Virus record (IMG/VR): IMGVR_UViG_3300025128_000310
Location: 1 to 25,050 of that record
Strand: one strand, 5' to 3'
DNA: 25,050 bases
From: a virus
The translations under genes were made by a program, and so were the position numbers. Positions within the stretch are counted from its first letter, which is position 1. Each line of letters opens with the position of its first letter. The notes below the pieces were generated by a model that had not been told where the DNA came from, searched no databases, and saw only the letters and a program-made list of their open reading frames with translations. Of this stretch, positions 12,505 through 23,736 are shown in pieces.

Positions 12505-13182
12505 CTAGTGTATTCCCGGTAATTTCTCAAAGATGTACCCGGCGAACTCTCCGACTTGTAGCCATTTAACGTATTCCCGGCGGAGGAGATGGGTTTCTAC
12601 GTCTACCGGACGTTGTACTCCTACGAGGGAAAGCTCCTTTTCGGCTATTTCGTTAAGGGTTATCCCTCCTATTTGCTTCTGTTTCATGGTCCAGCGGTGT
12701 ATTGTCGAGCCTAGATATCCTGAAGCGAGCGGTATTTTGTCTACAATTATGATCGCTCCTCCCGGGTTGAGTCGCTTATGTAGCTTATTTAAGAGGGTTT
12801 CCCGGCTGTTTACCGGGATAAACATTAATGTTAGGAATAGGACAGCGATATCGAAGTTCTCATATTCGTAGTCGAGAGCGTCCGCTATTAGGAGCTTTCC
12901 CGGCGCTTTGTACATTTCTTGCATCTCCCGGGCGCTTTCGATACCTATTAAGTCGATTCGGCGGGTTTCGACTGTTTCGGCTATCGAGCGGCCTATATTC
13001 CCGGTTGAGGCTCCTATGTCGTAGATTCTTCCCTTCTCCGGGGCGTAGGCTTTAATTAAGTGTGCGGTTCCGTGTGTCGCTAGATCGTACCAAGGGAGGG
13101 TTTCCCGAACGTGTGAGTCAAAGCGTTTAGCGACTTCCGGGTCTTTGAATGTCCAGTTCCCGGGGATCCATGAATCAGGCAT
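12505..13182 (-). CDS. CmoA-like SAM-dependent enzyme (putative carboxy-SAM synthase)
   Basis: This 225-aa class I methyltransferase fold most resembles CmoA over its whole length. It starts 'WTFKDPEVAKRFDSHVRETLPWYD' split as GNWTFKDPEVAKRF and SHVRETLPWYD, then motif I YDIGASTGNIG (~54-64), DLIGIES, 'FDIAVLFLTLMFIP', 'LHKRLNPGGAIIIVDK' and 'DVETHLLRREYVKWLQVGEF'. CmoA makes carboxy-SAM from SAM and prephenate. The residue I align with E. coli Arg199, which as I recall contacts the carboxylate, is Glu here (EIAEKELSL), so the product is not certain. The start overlaps the methyltransferase stop by 8 bases, implying coupling. A plain methyltransferase is the alternative. Confidence 0.72.
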   Translation of the reverse strand: MPDSWIPGNWTFKDPEVAKRFDSHVRETLPWYDLATHGTAHLIKAYAPEKGRIYDIGASTGNIGRSIAETVETRRIDLIGIESAREMQEMYKAPGKLLIADALDYEYENFDIAVLFLTLMFIPVNSRETLLNKLHKRLNPGGAIIIVDKIPLASGYLGSTIHRWTMKQKQIGGITLNEIAEKELSLVGVQRPVDVETHLLRREYVKWLQVGEFAGYIFEKLPGIH

Positions 13183-14320
13183 TGTCGAGTAATTCCTTTA
13201 CTTTTCCGGCGAGTTGCGCTGACATGAGAGGAGGGACCGCTCGGCCTATTCGCTCCCAGCGTTGTCGAAAGTTCCCGGTTAGCTTAAAATCATCAGGGAA
13301 TCCTCCAAGGCGGCGGAGTTCCAGAAGGGTAAATTTCCTTGGTTCGCTCGGGTGTGTTATCCCGGCGGCTCCGGTAGCTCCGGCTGTTTGCGTAATACAA
13401 GGGCATGTTTTCTCGGCATTAGCTCGGGTAAGGTTTAGGTATTTATTGCTTGATTCTCCCGGGCGTAGCTTCAGCCATTCATTGTAGATTGCGTAGGGTT
13501 CTTCAGGGTTTCTTCCTTGCCGGGAGATATCCGCCGATTCCCACTCGTTTCTGTCTCCCGGGTCTGGATGCCCGGAAGATAACGCTTTATCGAACCAGTC
13601 GCCGGGGAGCTTTCCGTATTCTCCCCGGTTCGTTATCCAAGGGCAAGCATCTCGTATCGAGTAGGTATATGGGAGGGGACTCGGCCACATAGGAGCCATA
13701 TTAAGGTCATTGCGTACTCCGTAGAAGAATAACCTCGTCCGGGTTTGTGGAACTCCTAAATAACGAGCATCGAGAACTTTAGCTTCGACTCGATACCCGC
13801 ATTCCTTTAATTCTTTAAGGATTAGCTTGAAATATCCCTTTGCGGATCCCTTTACTAACCCGGCGACATTCTCGGCTGTGAAGACTTTAGGCTGTAAACC
13901 CTTAAGGATCCGGGCGAACTCGAAGAACAAATCATCTGTTTGTTGGGCCGCTTCCGAGTATTTCTTGACTTTACCCCAGTCTTTTTCCCGGTTTCCGGAA
14001 GTCGAGAAGCTACTACACGGCGGAGATCCCTCCAAAACATCTACTTCCCCGGCGGATAACCCGGCGATTTCAAGGATATCTCCCGGCGTGACTTGTCGAA
14101 TATTGCGTGTATCTACCGGGACTCCCGGGTGATTAAGTTCGTATGTTTCCCGGGCTTCCTTAATAAATTCGTTGGCGTATCTAACTTCAAACCCGGCGAT
14201 TTCGTAACCCAAGCAGGCTCCGCCGCAACCGCTGAAAGTCGATATCAGGTTATATCCGCTCTGTCCTCGGAGCTTCTCGATCTCTTTCATAGATGGGACT
14301 ACATACGGTGGTTTCGTCAT
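13175..14320 (-). CDS. C5-cytosine DNA methyltransferase with Arg in motif X (putative DNA carboxymethyltransferase)
   Basis: This 381-aa protein has the C5-methyltransferase motifs in order: I ISTFSGCGGACLGYE (26-40); IV GSPPCSSFS with catalytic Cys102; VI ENV (150-152); VIII QTRTR (192-196); IX 'FTLLELRRLGGFPDDFK'; and X. Residues ~205-330 form the target-recognition region. Motif X reads ERIGRAVPP: the near-invariant Asn of GNAVPP is Arg360. In engineered M.MpeI, replacing this Asn with a basic residue confers carboxy-SAM use, the base pairing with the carboxylate. With CmoA-like and Asn-synthetase-like genes overlapping its two ends, I infer transfer of a carboxymethyl group to cytosine C5. 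The methyltransferase fold is certain; the group transferred is a hypothesis. Confidence 0.9.
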   Translation of the reverse strand: MTKPPYVVPSMKEIEKLRGQSGYNLISTFSGCGGACLGYEIAGFEVRYANEFIKEARETYELNHPGVPVDTRNIRQVTPGDILEIAGLSAGEVDVLEGSPPCSSFSTSGNREKDWGKVKKYSEAAQQTDDLFFEFARILKGLQPKVFTAENVAGLVKGSAKGYFKLILKELKECGYRVEAKVLDARYLGVPQTRTRLFFYGVRNDLNMAPMWPSPLPYTYSIRDACPWITNRGEYGKLPGDWFDKALSSGHPDPGDRNEWESADISRQGRNPEEPYAIYNEWLKLRPGESSNKYLNLTRANAEKTCPCITQTAGATGAAGITHPSEPRKFTLLELRRLGGFPDDFKLTGNFRQRWERIGRAVPPLMSAQLAGKVKELLDNA

Positions 14321-15159
14321 AGTTTCCCGGCTTTCGCTAATTTGTCGAGTTTATTCATTCCCGGGAGCGGAGACTTTGAACCGGGAGATAGCTCGGATAT
14401 TACGACTTTGGCGATTATTTCCGATATTCCGTTATCGCCGCTTTGTAAGTTTTGATGCACGTTGCTCGATATCCCTTCGACTTCCGGAAACTCTCTCCTT
14501 ACGACTTCCTTCTGTCTCGGTTTATTTACTTCATACCAGTCCTTCCCGGCGTACAAATCGAATATGCGCTTATCGAAATATGGGCATATTACATCTATTC
14601 CGTACTGCTTCGAGAGAATAGCCCGGCTGATTATCTGATTAACATCAGGCTTATTAAACATTTTGCGGCGATACTCCTGAAACTTCTCTCGAGTCTCACG
14701 GTAATGAATATAGGCTTCTTTGCTTAGCGCAAAGTGTCCGTCCGCTCCTATCCCGGTTGCAAGCGTAGATATCTTGACTTCCTGTAGCTTCGCAAAGGTA
14801 TCTATCCACGGAAACAAACAATCAACGGTTGTTTTCTTAAGTTTGAGATCATAGTTGCTTCCGGGTAATCGAAGAACTCTGATGACTTCCTCTACCCGGC
14901 GGAGGACCGGCTCGGGAAGAACCGGGAGAAATACCGGAATAAACTCCAAACCGAACTTTCGAGCGAGTCCCCGAGCGGTTCTAAAGTCTTTCGATTGCCT
15001 ATCAGCGAGCGTGAAGCTAATCACAGAAACTTCCTTATCGCAGTCAAGGGCCGCTATTAGTATGCTAGCGCTATCTATACCGGAGGAAGTAGCTACGGCG
15101 AGCTTATCGGGGAGCGGAGAGATAATATCCTGAAGGATGGGCCGTATTTCAGAACTCAT
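14317..15159 (-). CDS. Asparagine-synthetase-like PP-loop ATPase
   Basis: This 280-aa protein has its start at ATG 15159, inside the ParB-like gene's last codons (11-base overlap). A reading from 15243 overlaps that gene far more. It has a PP-loop TSSGIDSAS (24-32), a second nucleotide motif GIGADGHF (136-143, as in GxGADE of AsnB) and 'CPYFDKRIFDLYAG'. This is the synthetase half only: no N-terminal glutaminase Cys domain is present, so the nitrogen donor would be ammonia, an amine or a partner. The family adenylates a carboxylate and makes an amide. It overlaps the methyltransferase start as ATGA. The inferred substrate is carboxymethylcytosine in DNA. Confidence 0.8.
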   Translation of the reverse strand: MSSEIRPILQDIISPLPDKLAVATSSGIDSASILIAALDCDKEVSVISFTLADRQSKDFRTARGLARKFGLEFIPVFLPVLPEPVLRRVEEVIRVLRLPGSNYDLKLKKTTVDCLFPWIDTFAKLQEVKISTLATGIGADGHFALSKEAYIHYRETREKFQEYRRKMFNKPDVNQIISRAILSKQYGIDVICPYFDKRIFDLYAGKDWYEVNKPRQKEVVRREFPEVEGISSNVHQNLQSGDNGISEIIAKVVISELSPGSKSPLPGMNKLDKLAKAGKL

Positions 15160-15643
15160 ATCCACACTTAGGGCAGGTGTTATTTGTTTCGATATCATCA
15201 CCGAAACTCGGGAAGTCTCCCGGGTCACCGTCACTAAGGTCATTAATTAAATCATCAAGGTCATCCGTATCGAACCCGGTTCCGATTAAGTCTCCATCCT
15301 CTATGGCTATTCCTCGGAGGATATCGAGGAGAGCGTGATCATCGTAACTAGCTAGGTCTGATGTTTTGTTATCGGCGAGGAGAATCTTCCGGGCTTCCTT
15401 ATCGTCTACATCTACCCAGAACACTGGCACTTCTTCTATCCCGGCGGCGATAGCCGCTTGAAGTCTGTGGTTCCCGGCGAGAACCCGAGAGGAGTTCCGT
15501 TGAACAACGAGCGTACCGTAGAAGCCATTCTCTTGTATAGAGGTTACTATCGCTCCGATATCTCCCTGCCGGGGATTATCCGGATGTATCTCTAACTTCT
15601 TCACAGATACATATTCAACCGGCGCTTTACTGCGGCCCACCAT
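15149..15643 (-). CDS. ParB-like nuclease-domain protein
   Basis: Residues ~8-105 of this 164-aa protein form a ParB/sulfiredoxin-like domain: 'VKKLEIHPDNPRQGDIGAIV', 'IQENGFYGTLVVQRNSSRVL', AGNHRLQAA (the G-x-R-x motif of this fold), 'VPVFWVDVDDKEARKILLAD'. An acidic linker follows, then NTCPKCGYEF at the end, half of a zinc ribbon. Phage proteins of this type often accompany DNA methyltransferases. This one opens the modification cluster with a good ribosome site (AAAAAGGAGAGAATATG). It may bind or nick DNA, or guide the modification enzymes (inference). Confidence 0.85.
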   Translation of the reverse strand: MVGRSKAPVEYVSVKKLEIHPDNPRQGDIGAIVTSIQENGFYGTLVVQRNSSRVLAGNHRLQAAIAAGIEEVPVFWVDVDDKEARKILLADNKTSDLASYDDHALLDILRGIAIEDGDLIGTGFDTDDLDDLINDLSDGDPGDFPSFGDDIETNNTCPKCGYEF

Positions 15644-15740: not shown

Positions 15741-15777
15741 CATGGAAGCAACGAACAACCAAAGGAGAAATTCCATG
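15741..15777 (+). promoter_or_regulatory. Conserved GGAAGCAA leader hairpin, copy 2
   Basis: CATGGAA (15741-15747) pairs fully with TTCCATG (15771-15777), which includes the start codon. AAAGGAG lies in the loop. The ATG at 15742 is six bases after the -10 box and in frame with the main start, 11 codons upstream. Confidence 0.65.
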
Positions 15778-16044
15778 AAAGCAATTAATGTAAAGCAAAA
15801 CATAGTGGCAGTAAAGAACCTCTGCCCAGAGTTCAACGAAAATGATCTTAAGTATCTAACCGTTAAACAAGAGCAAGTTAATAGAAAGAATGAAATCCGA
15901 GAGCTACAAGCACAAATTGACATAATACGTGAAACAGCCAGACTAGCATCAAGGCTGATGGAGTACTACCGAGGAGAAGTTGATAGCATCCGAGATCTCG
16001 AAGAAGTCCTAACAGAACTTAATGGCGAAGGGTGGAGCGAGTAA
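15775..16044 (+). CDS. Hypothetical 89-aa coiled-coil protein
   Basis: The function is not recognised. The start is ATG 15775 after AAAGGAG. Residues ~30-60 ('NRKNEIRELQAQIDIIRETA') form a probable coiled coil, and the C-terminus is acidic ('SIRDLEEVLTELNGEGWSE'). It is an AT-rich single gene with no CCGG, set between two minus-strand operons, with its own promoter, leader hairpin and terminator. The leaderless reading from 15742 would add MEATNNQRRNS. It is probably a moron-type host-interaction or regulatory protein, judged by context only. Confidence 0.75.
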   Translation: MKAINVKQNIVAVKNLCPEFNENDLKYLTVKQEQVNRKNEIRELQAQIDIIRETARLASRLMEYYRGEVDSIRDLEEVLTELNGEGWSE

Positions 16045-16526: not shown

Positions 16527-16861
16527 TAGCTCCTCCCGGGCGGTGCGGATTTAATTAAGCCCAGCTTCTTCGCTTCGCCAACGTTATCATGTACCCAACG
16601 ATGACACATACGACAGATAGCAACGGAGTTCTCGACATCTAAGATAGAACCACCGAGGGAGCGGAGGATAGGCTCGTGTAACTCTGTCGAGTATCTCGTA
16701 CAAACTTCCGGAATCCTAGCTTCGCAGAATTGTCTCTTATCGAGTTCTTCCTTAACGAAAGCCCGGCGCTTTGTATTCGTTTTGGCTCGCTTCTTGCTAA
16801 CCGGGTTGAGGGAACCGCTCCGCCGCAGAGGTGTTTTCCGTTTGAGCGGAGTTCTTTTCAT
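16526..16861 (-). CDS. HNH endonuclease
   Basis: This 111-aa protein starts ATG 16861, overlapping the upstream stop as ATGA; a GTG at 16870 is possible but less likely. The basic N-terminus (MKRTPLKRKTPLRRSGS) is seen in many small phage HNH proteins. The HNH core is FCEARIPEVC, 'TELHEPILRSLGG', then 'NSVAICRMCHRWVHDN', with two Cys pairs for zinc and the paired His. Roles include packaging-linked nicking or homing; its place beside RusA suggests DNA processing. The distance from terminase argues against a terminase-associated HNH. Confidence 0.85.
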   Translation of the reverse strand: MKRTPLKRKTPLRRSGSLNPVSKKRAKTNTKRRAFVKEELDKRQFCEARIPEVCTRYSTELHEPILRSLGGSILDVENSVAICRMCHRWVHDNVGEAKKLGLIKSAPPGRS

Positions 16862-17691
16862 ATCCCGCACATACCTTCACATTCTTGGTCGAACAAGGAG
16901 TATTGTCCTAAATCTTCTTCATTGCGGAAATCTATTTGGTCTAAAGGTATGCAAGCCCTATGCAAATACGGAGTTCCATTAATCGTTGCTAATTGCGTCC
17001 CGGGGAGTGGATTTTGCATACGCTTTTCAAACTCTACTGCGTCATTAAATGCTTCGATATCTTCATGTTTCATTCGCCGCCATTCTTTATCGCTGTGATA
17101 GGGGCAACCGATACAAGCACTTCTTGGTGGTGGCGGATATCCGTGATTTTTAATCCACACCAAACAATCGTGTCGTGTCATCCGCAGATCAATAAGTGGA
17201 TATTCGTTTGTAATAAATTTAAGTTGATTGTCTTTCATTCTTTGTATTTCGTCAAGCGATATGCCCATTACGTTAGTTATTTCACCATTTTCAGGTTTCC
17301 ATTTCTCTCCGGGAGCTAGTCCAATAATTTCTCTTTCTTTCTTCTGGACTGGAATTACCTTGTATTCAGTTGTGCATTGTCTCCGGAGTGTCCCGGTTGT
17401 TCCATCCTCTCCTTTAGTAAAGACTGGAATTGAAGCGTGTCTTTTCCCAAGTAAAATATCTTGTTTGATATTTCCATAATTCTTGTCGCTTTTTACCTTA
17501 TGAAATTTGATACCTGCCGCTCGAAGTTTCGGAATTAACCACTCTAAATGCTTGTAAACATCGGGTGGCTCCCAACCAGTATCAGCAAATATTGCATGTT
17601 CTATTGGGGCGATTTCTTTATGAATTGCAAGCAACGCAACAGTAGTAGACTGTACGCCAGCTCCTAGAGATAATATACGTGTTGCTTTCAT
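16858..17691 (-). CDS. PAPS-reductase-like PP-loop protein
   Basis: This 277-aa protein begins 'ATRILSLGAGVQSTTVALLA', where SLGAGVQST is the PP-loop that binds ATP. It continues 'HAIFADTGWEPPDVYKHLEW', 'TLRRQCTTEYKVIPVQKKER' and the Cys motif SACIGCPYHSDKEWRRM. The family is frequent in phages of Actinobacteria and is annotated as phosphoadenosine phosphosulfate reductase, but a sulfate role is unproven. The fold adenylates substrates for sulfur or amine transfer, and the Cys residues could bind a metal or Fe-S cluster. It is not an obvious DndC: no other dnd genes are present. It may modify a nucleic acid alongside the neighbouring methyltransferase (inference). Confidence 0.8.
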   Translation of the reverse strand: MKATRILSLGAGVQSTTVALLAIHKEIAPIEHAIFADTGWEPPDVYKHLEWLIPKLRAAGIKFHKVKSDKNYGNIKQDILLGKRHASIPVFTKGEDGTTGTLRRQCTTEYKVIPVQKKEREIIGLAPGEKWKPENGEITNVMGISLDEIQRMKDNQLKFITNEYPLIDLRMTRHDCLVWIKNHGYPPPPRSACIGCPYHSDKEWRRMKHEDIEAFNDAVEFEKRMQNPLPGTQLATINGTPYLHRACIPLDQIDFRNEEDLGQYSLFDQECEGMCGI

Positions 17692-17903
17692 TGCCCTTCA
17701 ACTCCATAATATGATCTCATGATCGGCCAACAGAAATCTCGGGAACCGTATTGCTCAACATATTCCATATAAAGAGGGAAGTCGCCCGGGGCTACCGTGT
17801 CGTGATTCTCGCAGTAGACATCGGAACAGTAACCCTTCTCGATTCCTTCCGCAAGCCACCTATAATAATCTTTCTCAGTTGGTTTCTTTGTTGGTTTTCT
17901 CAT
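17688..17903 (-). CDS. Small Cys/His phage protein (71 aa)
   Basis: The central stretch is 'WLAEGIEKGYCSDVYCENHD', then FCWPIMRSYYG near the end. The W..DGI..G.CS...C..HD pattern recurs in small proteins of actinobacterial phages; its function is unknown. The Cys/His set could bind zinc. It overlaps the stop of the second methyltransferase by 29 bases and the start of the PP-loop gene by 4, so it sits within a coupled string. Confidence 0.75.
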   Translation of the reverse strand: MRKPTKKPTEKDYYRWLAEGIEKGYCSDVYCENHDTVAPGDFPLYMEYVEQYGSRDFCWPIMRSYYGVEGQ

Positions 17904-19143
17904 TGCTAGTTACCCTCTCCAATAGTATTGCATAAGCACGTTCGGCTTGCTGTGGGACTACGCCATTCCCTAGTAGTTCAAGCTTCCGGGTATATGACAA
18001 ATCAACGCCAGTTACCCAGCGCGGCGGAACTCCCATCATCCATTCGATAAACTCGGGAGAAACTTTAATTGATCCATTCTCGTGGTGATATGTTAAATCC
18101 TCTGGGACTCTCCGGTTCAGAACAGCTTCCCATCGTCCGATTGCTGGGCCGTATTCTTTGTATTTTCCCAATCTTCCCGAGCTATCTCCCACATTATTAC
18201 CGCCGGGAGAACTCTCTTTTTCGCTTGTCTCTCGTAATCCACTTCTGGTGTGTTGTCCTTCGGATCCTTCGCCGTGGGAGTCGGAAGGAGCTTCGTGATA
18301 GATCCGTATTCCTGTATGTGGCGCTGGAGATCCTCGACCGATAGTTTGCTCCCATCGTCTAATTGCTGGTTGATATCGTTCAAAAGACGATCCAGAAAGA
18401 CTAAATCGTTCAGGTTCACTCGTAGGAGTCCTGTTGATCCCGGCTTCCTCCCTGTCCCGGTAGCCATCCCCGATGTCAAACTCCTCCCCTGTCCGGTTGT
18501 CGGAGTCGGCAAAAGTTCTAGATGCGCCAAGACTCCCTGCACGTTTACTGTCCCCTTCGCTCCACTCGGTCGTTTGCCATCTCCTGTCCTCCCGGAGTAG
18601 TCCGGCGATTTCCTTGCGTCCCGGTTCGTCATCGTTGGTAGCAACGCAAAACCATCGCTCTCGTTTATGTGGGGCTCCGACATCACTCGCTCGAATAACA
18701 AGCCACTCCCATCTGATGTAACCGTTTTCGGCCAACGCTTCACAGACTCGTCCCATAGCTTCTCCGTTGTTAGCGGTAAGTATGGCTCCGACATTTTCGA
18801 GGAGGAGGTATCTTGCTCCAGCAAGCCGGGCAACTTTGCAAACATCCGATATGAGCCATCTTTCATCTTTAACTCCTTTTCGTAAACCGCCTGTACTAAC
18901 CGGCTGACAAGGAAAGCCTGCGGTGACGATATCAACTTTCTCCGGTTCAAATAGTTGTTGTGATATTTCTGTCAGATCTCCTAAATTCGGTATGTTCCCG
19001 AATCTTTCCTTAATTACTTTGTCGCTCCCGGGGCAGATGTCAGAGAACCAAACCATTTCGGTGTCGAGGATATTTCTTAACCCCAGTTCGATTCCTCCGT
19101 AACCGGCACAAAGCGCTCCTACTGACAAACCCAATGTTGCCAT
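17875..19143 (-). CDS. C5-cytosine DNA methyltransferase (Dcm-like), second copy
   Basis: In this 422-aa protein, motif I is LCAGYGGIELGLR (11-23), IV GFPCQPVS with catalytic Cys79, VI ENV (116-118), VIII 'APHKRERWFCVA', and X LLGNGVVPQQAERAY with the normal Asn393. 'SPEFIEWMMGVPPRWVTG' precedes motif X, typical of phage enzymes. Residues ~170-340 are a variable, low-complexity recognition region. It should therefore be an ordinary SAM-dependent enzyme. GCAGGAGG abuts ATG 19143; TTG at 19134 is better spaced and would remove MAT. The middle of the gene also holds a long ORF in another frame. Confidence 0.92.
   Translation of the reverse strand: MATLGLSVGALCAGYGGIELGLRNILDTEMVWFSDICPGSDKVIKERFGNIPNLGDLTEISQQLFEPEKVDIVTAGFPCQPVSTGGLRKGVKDERWLISDVCKVARLAGARYLLLENVGAILTANNGEAMGRVCEALAENGYIRWEWLVIRASDVGAPHKRERWFCVATNDDEPGRKEIAGLLREDRRWQTTEWSEGDSKRAGSLGASRTFADSDNRTGEEFDIGDGYRDREEAGINRTPTSEPERFSLSGSSFERYQPAIRRWEQTIGRGSPAPHTGIRIYHEAPSDSHGEGSEGQHTRSGLRETSEKESSPGGNNVGDSSGRLGKYKEYGPAIGRWEAVLNRRVPEDLTYHHENGSIKVSPEFIEWMMGVPPRWVTGVDLSYTRKLELLGNGVVPQQAERAYAILLERVTSNEKTNKETN
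18117..18866 (-). CDS. Overlapping ORF with LLPTPT repeats inside the second methyltransferase
   Basis: This 249-codon ORF lies in another frame of the methyltransferase gene. It has its own ATG at 18866 and a strong ribosome site (AAAAGGAGTTAAAGATG). The product contains 'RWPKTVTSDGSGLLFERVM', 'FALLPTMTNRDARKS', 'LELLPTPTTGQGRSLTSG' and 'KLLPTPTAKDPKDNTP'. Proteins built of LLPTPTxxD modules are annotated in many phages beside or within C5-methyltransferases. Because 'ADSD' in the enzyme frame reads as 'PTPT' one frame over, the likeness could be a by-product of the enzyme's own conservation. It could also extend to TTG at 18950. Confidence 0.4.
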   Translation of the reverse strand: MKDGSYRMFAKLPGLLEQDTSSSKMSEPYLPLTTEKLWDESVKRWPKTVTSDGSGLLFERVMSEPHINESDGFALLPTMTNRDARKSPDYSGRTGDGKRPSGAKGTVNVQGVLAHLELLPTPTTGQGRSLTSGMATGTGRKPGSTGLLRVNLNDLVFLDRLLNDINQQLDDGSKLSVEDLQRHIQEYGSITKLLPTPTAKDPKDNTPEVDYERQAKKRVLPAVIMWEIAREDWENTKNTAQQSDDGKLF

Positions 19144-23496: not shown

Positions 23497-23531
23497 ATGG
23501 AAGCAATTAATAACAAAGGAGAGAATTCCAT
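23497..23531 (+). promoter_or_regulatory. Conserved GGAAGCAA leader hairpin, copy 4
   Basis: ATGGAA (23497-23502) pairs with TTCCAT (23526-23531), covering the start codon; CAAAGGAG is in the loop. The upstream ATG is in frame, 11 codons before the main start, reading MEAINNKGENS. Confidence 0.65.
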
Positions 23532-23736
23532 GAAAGTAACTAGTATTCGATACTTCAAGACCAACCGTGGTGTTGGTTACGAAGCAAAAACCGCAAACGG
23601 AAGTATTCTTAATGACGGTGACGGTGGTCCAACCTATTTCATAGGAGATACGCCAGAAGCAAATAAGAAATATAGAGATCTCAGCGAATTTAAGTTGGAA
23701 GAATATATTGATATCTATGAAGGAGTAAATCAATAG
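23530..23736 (+). CDS. Hypothetical 68-aa moron-like protein
   Basis: The function is not recognised. It begins MKVTSIRYFKTNRGVGYEAK: a beta-rich N-terminus, then 'ILNDGDGGPTYFIGDTPE' and an acidic helical tail 'FKLEEYIDIYEGVNQ'. It is a single AT-rich gene with no CCGG, its own promoter, hairpin leader and terminator. A leaderless start at 23497 would give a 79-aa form. Confidence 0.75.
   Translation: MKVTSIRYFKTNRGVGYEAKTANGSILNDGDGGPTYFIGDTPEANKKYRDLSEFKLEEYIDIYEGVNQ

Follow-up and report, generated by a model that had tools for sequence, protein, structure and literature searches.

A phage ParB-CmoY-CmoX-CmoA operon predicted to carboxymethylate DNA cytosine and to cap the new carboxylate as an amide

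What would a virus do with a homologue of the carboxy-SAM synthase CmoA that is encoded directly after a C5-cytosine transferase and an asparagine-synthetase-like ligase? The question is raised by a 25,050-base IMG/VR virus record, an incomplete 25 kb contig (henceforth the window), whose minus strand also encodes the terminase, the portal and proteins of head and tail. Read from 15643 to 12505, and separated from the terminase by the single gene that precedes it, genes for a ParB_N protein, the Asn-synthetase-like ligase (CmoY), the C5-cytosine transferase (CmoX) and the CmoA homologue follow each other in that order (Table 1). A preliminary description of this DNA had proposed a natural carboxymethylation of phage DNA cytosine followed by amide formation, and this core proposal is supported by its match to the biochemistry of Synechococcus phage S-B43, in which carboxy-SAM is made by CmoA, 5-carboxymethylcytosine (5cxmC) by CmoX, and the new carboxyl group is linked to glycine by CmoY at the expense of ATP (Yang et al., Nat Commun, Dec 2025, PMC12783734). 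In the phage DNA of S-B43 the glycine-amide base has been detected, and the 5,615 CmoX candidates found in the same study have CmoA, ligases and ParBc proteins in their vicinity (PMC12783734). DNA carboxymethylation as a system was thus already published in December 2025, and the window is a new example of it with a ligase from another clade.

Table 1. Operon genes and key residues in the window, with the evidence for each
Feature	Coordinates	Strand	Evidence
ParB_N-domain protein, 164 aa	15149..15643	-	first gene of the operon; PF02195 6.2e-07; PHROG_620/723 ~1e-39
CmoY, putative ATP-dependent amide ligase, 280 aa	14317..15159	-	PF00733 1.2e-05; Asn-synthetase/beta-lactam-synthetase fold
CmoX, C5-cytosine carboxymethyltransferase (predicted), 381 aa	13175..14320	-	PF00145 6.6e-58; best PDB match 8yf3
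Ser-Pro-Pro-Cys of CmoX motif IV (residues 99-102), with the predicted catalytic Cys102	14015..14026	-	aligned with SpCmoX and HhaI
CmoX motif X Arg360 replacing the usual Asn	13241..13243	-	aligned with HhaI N304 and SpCmoX R350
CmoA, carboxy-SAM synthase homologue, 225 aa	12505..13182	-	TIGR00740 1.9e-23
CmoA Glu183, aligned with E. coli Arg199	12634..12636	-	alignment of phage CmoAs

We consider it very likely that the window operon belongs to the phage CmoA-CmoX-CmoY hypermodification systems, in which cytosine is carboxymethylated and the carboxylate is then capped as an amide with glycine or another amine. Here, CmoA would convert SAM and prephenate to carboxy-SAM, while CmoX would flip the cytosine out of the DNA, attack its C6 with Cys102 and move the carboxymethyl group to C5, with Arg360 holding the carboxylate, to leave 5-carboxymethylcytosine in the phage DNA. 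CmoY would then convert this carboxylate to an acyl-adenylate and couple the activated group to an amine, for which glycine or another amino acid is the likeliest choice, and the amide-capped base would hide the phage DNA from host restriction. All three reactions have been demonstrated for S-B43 only (PMC12783734); for the phage studied here we infer the enzyme activities, the target sequence, the amine and the protection from restriction.

The organization of the locus is that of a tightly packed operon. Four ORFs were verified on the minus strand (12505-13182, 13175-14320, 14317-15243 and 15149-15643), and the longest ORFs overlap by 8 nt (CmoX/CmoA), 4 nt (CmoY/CmoX) and 95 nt (ParB/CmoY), in agreement with the coordinates, order and overlaps of the preliminary description, which are correct for the longest ORFs. 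The true start of CmoY, though, is probably the ATG at 15159 rather than the longest-ORF start at 15243, because the family alignment, the family length (mostly 271-285 aa), the disorder of residues 1-29 of the longest ORF in the predicted structure (pLDDT below 50, as against 88.9 for the model) and the location of this ATG within the ParB stop region (GGATATGAGTTCTGA) all favor it; the longest ORF was accordingly rejected as the real gene. With the start at 15159 the overlaps are 11 (ParB/CmoY), 4 and 8 nt, which is the pattern that would be expected of translational coupling in a four-gene operon. At its head, the ATG of the ParB_N gene is preceded by a Shine-Dalgarno-like AAGGAG, and its product ends in a tail of the CxxC type (CPKCGYEF). 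ParB homologues adjoin CmoX in 110 of the 149 distinct CmoX relatives from our pooled IMG/VR scans, and ParBc genes have been reported near many CmoX genes (PMC12783734). A survey of the ParB fold describes its members as binding various NTPs and as often being fused to methyltransferase domains in phages (PMC12704722).

The genes and their order, the conserved active-site residues, the folds and the co-occurrence with the motif X Arg are observed in the window, and the same association extends well beyond it. Copies identical to the window trio are present in other IMG/VR contigs, and many unrelated contigs carry the gene set as well; hence, the association of the trio is far beyond chance, and the search in other phages that had earlier been proposed as a check does recover it. 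When IMG/VR was scanned with an alignment of each of the three enzymes (CmoX, CmoA and CmoY), we found that the 80 loci selected by CmoX sequence alone all have the motif X Arg, and that CmoA is present in 79 and ParB in 73 of them; the single locus lacking CmoA begins at a contig edge. The pooled scans yielded 149 distinct CmoX proteins, with the SPPC motif in every one (149/149), the motif X Arg in all that were readable at this position (147/147) and CmoA nearby in 145, the remaining four lying at contig or locus ends. Among cellular genomes, Endozoicomonas, Brasilonema and a Scytonema plasmid combine the motif X Arg with CmoA, while a Metabacillus relative, 28% identical, has Asn in motif X and no CmoA match at its locus. 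A use of CmoY free of CmoX was considered and rejected: where CmoY has no CmoX nearby, both CmoX and CmoA occur elsewhere in all seven large contigs tested, and only the eighth record (12.8 kb) has neither. Two further genes of the window were tried as parts of the pathway, namely a PP-loop protein at 16858-17691 (PHROG_424, PAPS-reductase-like) and a second C5-MTase at 17875-19143 with Asn in motif X, and set aside: in the fetched loci each recurs only where the present phage itself is found again in near-identical form.

Comparison with the closest described systems brings out both the shared core and the variable periphery. As in S-B43, where 5cxmC is turned into 5gcxmC, the window has the three enzymes in one overlapping cluster, the SPPC motif and the motif X Arg in CmoX, a stand-alone AMP-forming ligase, and Glu in the Arg199 column of CmoA. 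The two differ in gene order (ParB-CmoY-CmoX-CmoA in the window versus CmoA-CmoY-CmoX in S-B43) and in that no adjoining ParB is annotated in S-B43; the identity is 41% for CmoX and 35% for CmoY, with the window CmoY in a separate, supported clade. The ParB-CmoX-CmoA genes of Moraxella phage Mcat8 (KR093632) share with the window their order and their packing by the terminase genes, and its CmoX and CmoA are each 46% identical to those of the window; unlike the window, it has no CmoY, and plain 5cxmC is expected there. These comparisons lend independent support from sequence to the idea that hypermodification with carboxymethylcytosine is widespread and draws on an exchangeable gene set. The window contributes to it a coupled ParB-CmoY-CmoX-CmoA operon whose ligase is of a clade apart from the glycine-ligating CmoY.

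The nature of the amide hinges on CmoY. Its predicted structure retrieves beta-lactam synthetase (1mc1) and Asn synthetases as the top Foldseek matches, which places it by modeling among the acyl-adenylating amide synthetases, as with the asparagine synthetase B/beta-lactam synthetase family (PF00733). In contrast to that family, both the sequence and the model of the window CmoY begin directly at the synthetase domain with no N-terminal glutaminase domain, and a DNA base is its expected substrate. It is thus a stand-alone ATP-dependent ligase of the Asn-synthetase type, with linkage to both CmoX and CmoA. The preliminary description had it amidate the carboxymethyl group with ammonia to give 5-carbamoylmethylcytosine (+57 Da), which is consistent with its homology to Asn synthetase and with ammonia being the substrate inferred for a distinct, glutaminase-bearing cluster of CmoYs (PMC12783734), such as the 466-aa protein of Streptomyces phage TurkishDelight, which combines GATase and Asn_synthase domains. 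We regard such simple amidation as unlikely because the window CmoY has no glutaminase domain; moreover, it groups with the stand-alone CmoYs, of which the tested member uses glycine. Glycine or another amine is the likelier substrate, probably glycine or another amino acid, and a glycine amide would be expected at +115 Da over dC, m/z 343.1.

As to the choice among amines, the evidence is mixed. The residues that are invariant in the family are common to the window CmoY and SpCmoY, but the former lies in a separate clade and differs in its C-terminal residues. A tree of 91 rows places it in a clade of 17 (support 100/99), separate from the clade of 58 rows to which the glycine-ligating S-B43 CmoY belongs, and several positions fixed in the latter clade differ in it. 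It is a tentative possibility that the 17-row clade attaches an amine other than glycine, in which case the phage DNA would carry an undescribed amide of 5-carboxymethylcytosine. Alternatively, CmoY might be inactive or otherwise employed, leaving plain 5-carboxymethylcytosine in the DNA; the presence of CmoY in just 20 of the 80 CmoX-selected loci and the CmoY-free arrangement of Mcat8 agree with this, but the CmoY gene of the window is intact and coupled to CmoX, has a confidently predicted fold and retains every column invariant among 43 CmoYs, making such a role quite improbable.

For CmoX, the residue of interest is the one that would face the carboxylate. The best structural-database (PDB) match of the window protein is 8yf3, the SpCmoX of phage S-B43 with carboxy-SAM (E 1.1e-64), and the motif X of the two reads ERIGRAVPPLM and ERVGRMVPPLM, respectively. 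The window protein has the C5-MTase fold with SPPC, and its Arg360 aligns with HhaI N304 and SpCmoX R350, bearing out the substitution for Asn that was first noticed in the window sequence. SpCmoX Arg350 contacts the carboxylate of carboxy-SAM, and the wild-type enzyme accepts carboxy-SAM only (PMC12783734; structure 8YF3); by alignment, the window Arg360 is predicted to bind this carboxylate likewise. In M.MpeI N374K/R, too, a basic residue stands in for the Asn of motif X and lets the enzyme accept carboxy-SAM; that carboxymethyltransferase is an engineered CpG enzyme, whereas the substitution in the window CmoX is natural (N374K is taken up in the discussion of PMC12783734). The target-recognition region of the window CmoX aligns poorly, and the GC recognition of SpCmoX comes from tests of that enzyme only (PMC12783734). 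That CmoX also scores above the cut-offs of PF00145 and TIGR00675 would fit an ordinary 5-methylcytosine methyltransferase lying next to unrelated genes, a reading that is very hard to sustain: the family linked to CmoA has an unvarying Arg here, unlinked relatives have Asn, as do the window's second C5-MTase and other ordinary C5-MTases of CmoX loci, and wild-type SpCmoX takes carboxy-SAM only.

The last component, CmoA, was the one on which doubt had been cast. Its match to TIGR00740 (1.9e-23), yet under the equivalog cut-off, and its predicted structure (pLDDT 87), nearest to E. coli CmoA (4gek/4iwn, TM 0.82-0.85), place it in the CmoA fold and sequence family. Its homology to the tRNA-pathway enzyme would allow for a role in modifying the wobble position of tRNA (cmo5U), as its bacterial counterparts do, uncoupled from DNA, but its sharing of a locus with CmoX in 145/149 distinct cases and the lack of any recognised CmoB-like gene among the window genes scanned render this barely credible. 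In the E. coli enzyme, Arg199 forms a salt bridge to the carboxylate (PMC3663124); the window CmoA, with Glu at this position, does not have that bridge. The preliminary description had flagged that Glu as a caution; the residue is indeed Glu, but it does not count against activity. The S-B43 CmoA is active, exceeding the activity of the E. coli enzyme (PMC12783734), and because it too has Glu, as do 162 of the 196 phage CmoAs (S-B43 included), the alignment indicates that Arg199 is not defining for phage CmoA, in which Glu is the usual residue. The Lys preceding this column is invariant (196/196). The comparison thus settles the doubt over Arg199, and its loss as a mark of an inactive CmoA was rejected. 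Against the pathway stand the score of CmoA below the TIGR00740 cut-off, the placement of CmoY in a separate clade, with departures at some family positions (SSGIDS for SGGxDS and S268 for L), and the incompleteness of the contig.

Finally, CmoA also occurs in settings free of CmoX. Ten of the CmoA loci without CmoX carry a PHROG_5475 protein upstream of CmoA (two of the ten are partial), and in most of these a small HAD-like gene lies between the two. This protein, of about 510 aa, combines ParB_N with a class I methyltransferase-like region bearing DFGAGH; DPPY- or PCQ-type motifs are absent from the PHROG_5475 proteins of the ten loci, and when compared by sequence with solved structures the ParB part alone was matched. 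In a scan with PHROG_5475 only, its query alignment having been built from CmoA loci, the closest 80 relatives together with Gordonia phage Evaa gave 81 loci, of which 80 have CmoA and none has CmoX or CmoY. In the complete genome of Evaa the cassette is present, and no match to CmoX was obtained. A search that started from CmoX found no candidate N6- or N4-carboxymethyltransferase (PMC12783734), and phage ParB-Methyltransf_23 fusions have been mentioned, CmoA not (PMC12704722). The PHROG_5475 protein is a candidate carboxy-SAM-using transferase, and this cassette, which is absent from the founding paper (PMC12783734), points to a use of carboxy-SAM whose target is not the C5 of cytosine.

CmoA, the carboxy-SAM synthase homologue of the operon, is also found in cassettes ordered as ParB, PHROG_5475, a small HAD-like protein (in most loci) and CmoA, from which CmoX, the C5-cytosine carboxymethyltransferase, is absent. 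The PHROG_5475 protein combines a ParB_N domain with a class I methyltransferase-like region in about 510 aa. Across its closest 80 relatives from the IMG/VR scan and Gordonia phage Evaa, CmoA is present in 80 of the 81 loci, and CmoX or the amide ligase CmoY in none; the complete Evaa genome likewise yielded no match to CmoX. These associations make PHROG_5475 a candidate carboxy-SAM transferase, whose substrate would be other than cytosine C5.

Variation is also seen in the transferase itself. The C5-MTases adjoining CmoA in Staphylococcus phages vB-SscS-F1 and PhiSepi-HH3 have Gly in place of Arg or Asn in motif X (GGVINQ), with GSPC as motif IV. Related enzymes from two further phages, Perkons (at 49% identity) and Bm15, have the motif X Asn, and no CmoA was seen adjoining either. 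We regard the staphylococcal phage enzymes as a CmoX-like variant not covered by the published SPPC and Arg definition (PMC12783734). In Erwinia phage pEa_SNUABM_30, an intein-like insertion of ~350 aa interrupts the catalytic motif of CmoX (GSPP-CFTEDTI...VVVHN-CKGFSTAG), and the motif X Arg is retained (ERLGRICVPAM). Arg-type CmoX with CmoA further occurs in cyanobacterial and Endozoicomonas contigs; L336 is the sole plasmid among these cyanobacterial loci, and in Endozoicomonas ascidiicola the CmoX frame is broken into two.

Features of the window and of loci fetched for comparison (L-numbers; positions within each locus)
Feature	Location	Strand	Remarks
PAPS-reductase-like PP-loop protein (PHROG_424)	window 16858-17691	-	shortly upstream of operon
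Second C5-MTase	window 17875-19143	-	shortly upstream of operon; normal motif X Asn (LGNGVVP)
CmoX with insertion	L340:204-2357		pEa_SNUABM_30, 29703-31856
C5-MTase adjoining CmoA	L005:6494-7501 / L006:5690-6697		vB-SscS-F1 / PhiSepi-HH3
PHROG_5475 cassettes	L258-L334, L126, L159, L118; L252:1-3952		L258-L334, IMG/VR; L252, Evaa
Arg-type CmoX + CmoA	L336, L335, L337, L338		L336, Scytonema sp. NIES-4073 plasmid2

Among the fetched loci, the pairing of the PHROG_424 protein with the second C5-MTase recurs only in near-identical copies of the window phage. Two plus-strand ORFs (window 15742-16044 and 23497-23736) run opposite to the operon. They share a start stretch of ~46 bp (85% identical, ATGGAAGCAA...ATTCCATGAAAG), a putative duplicated leader or regulatory segment, and are also alike in the sequence upstream.
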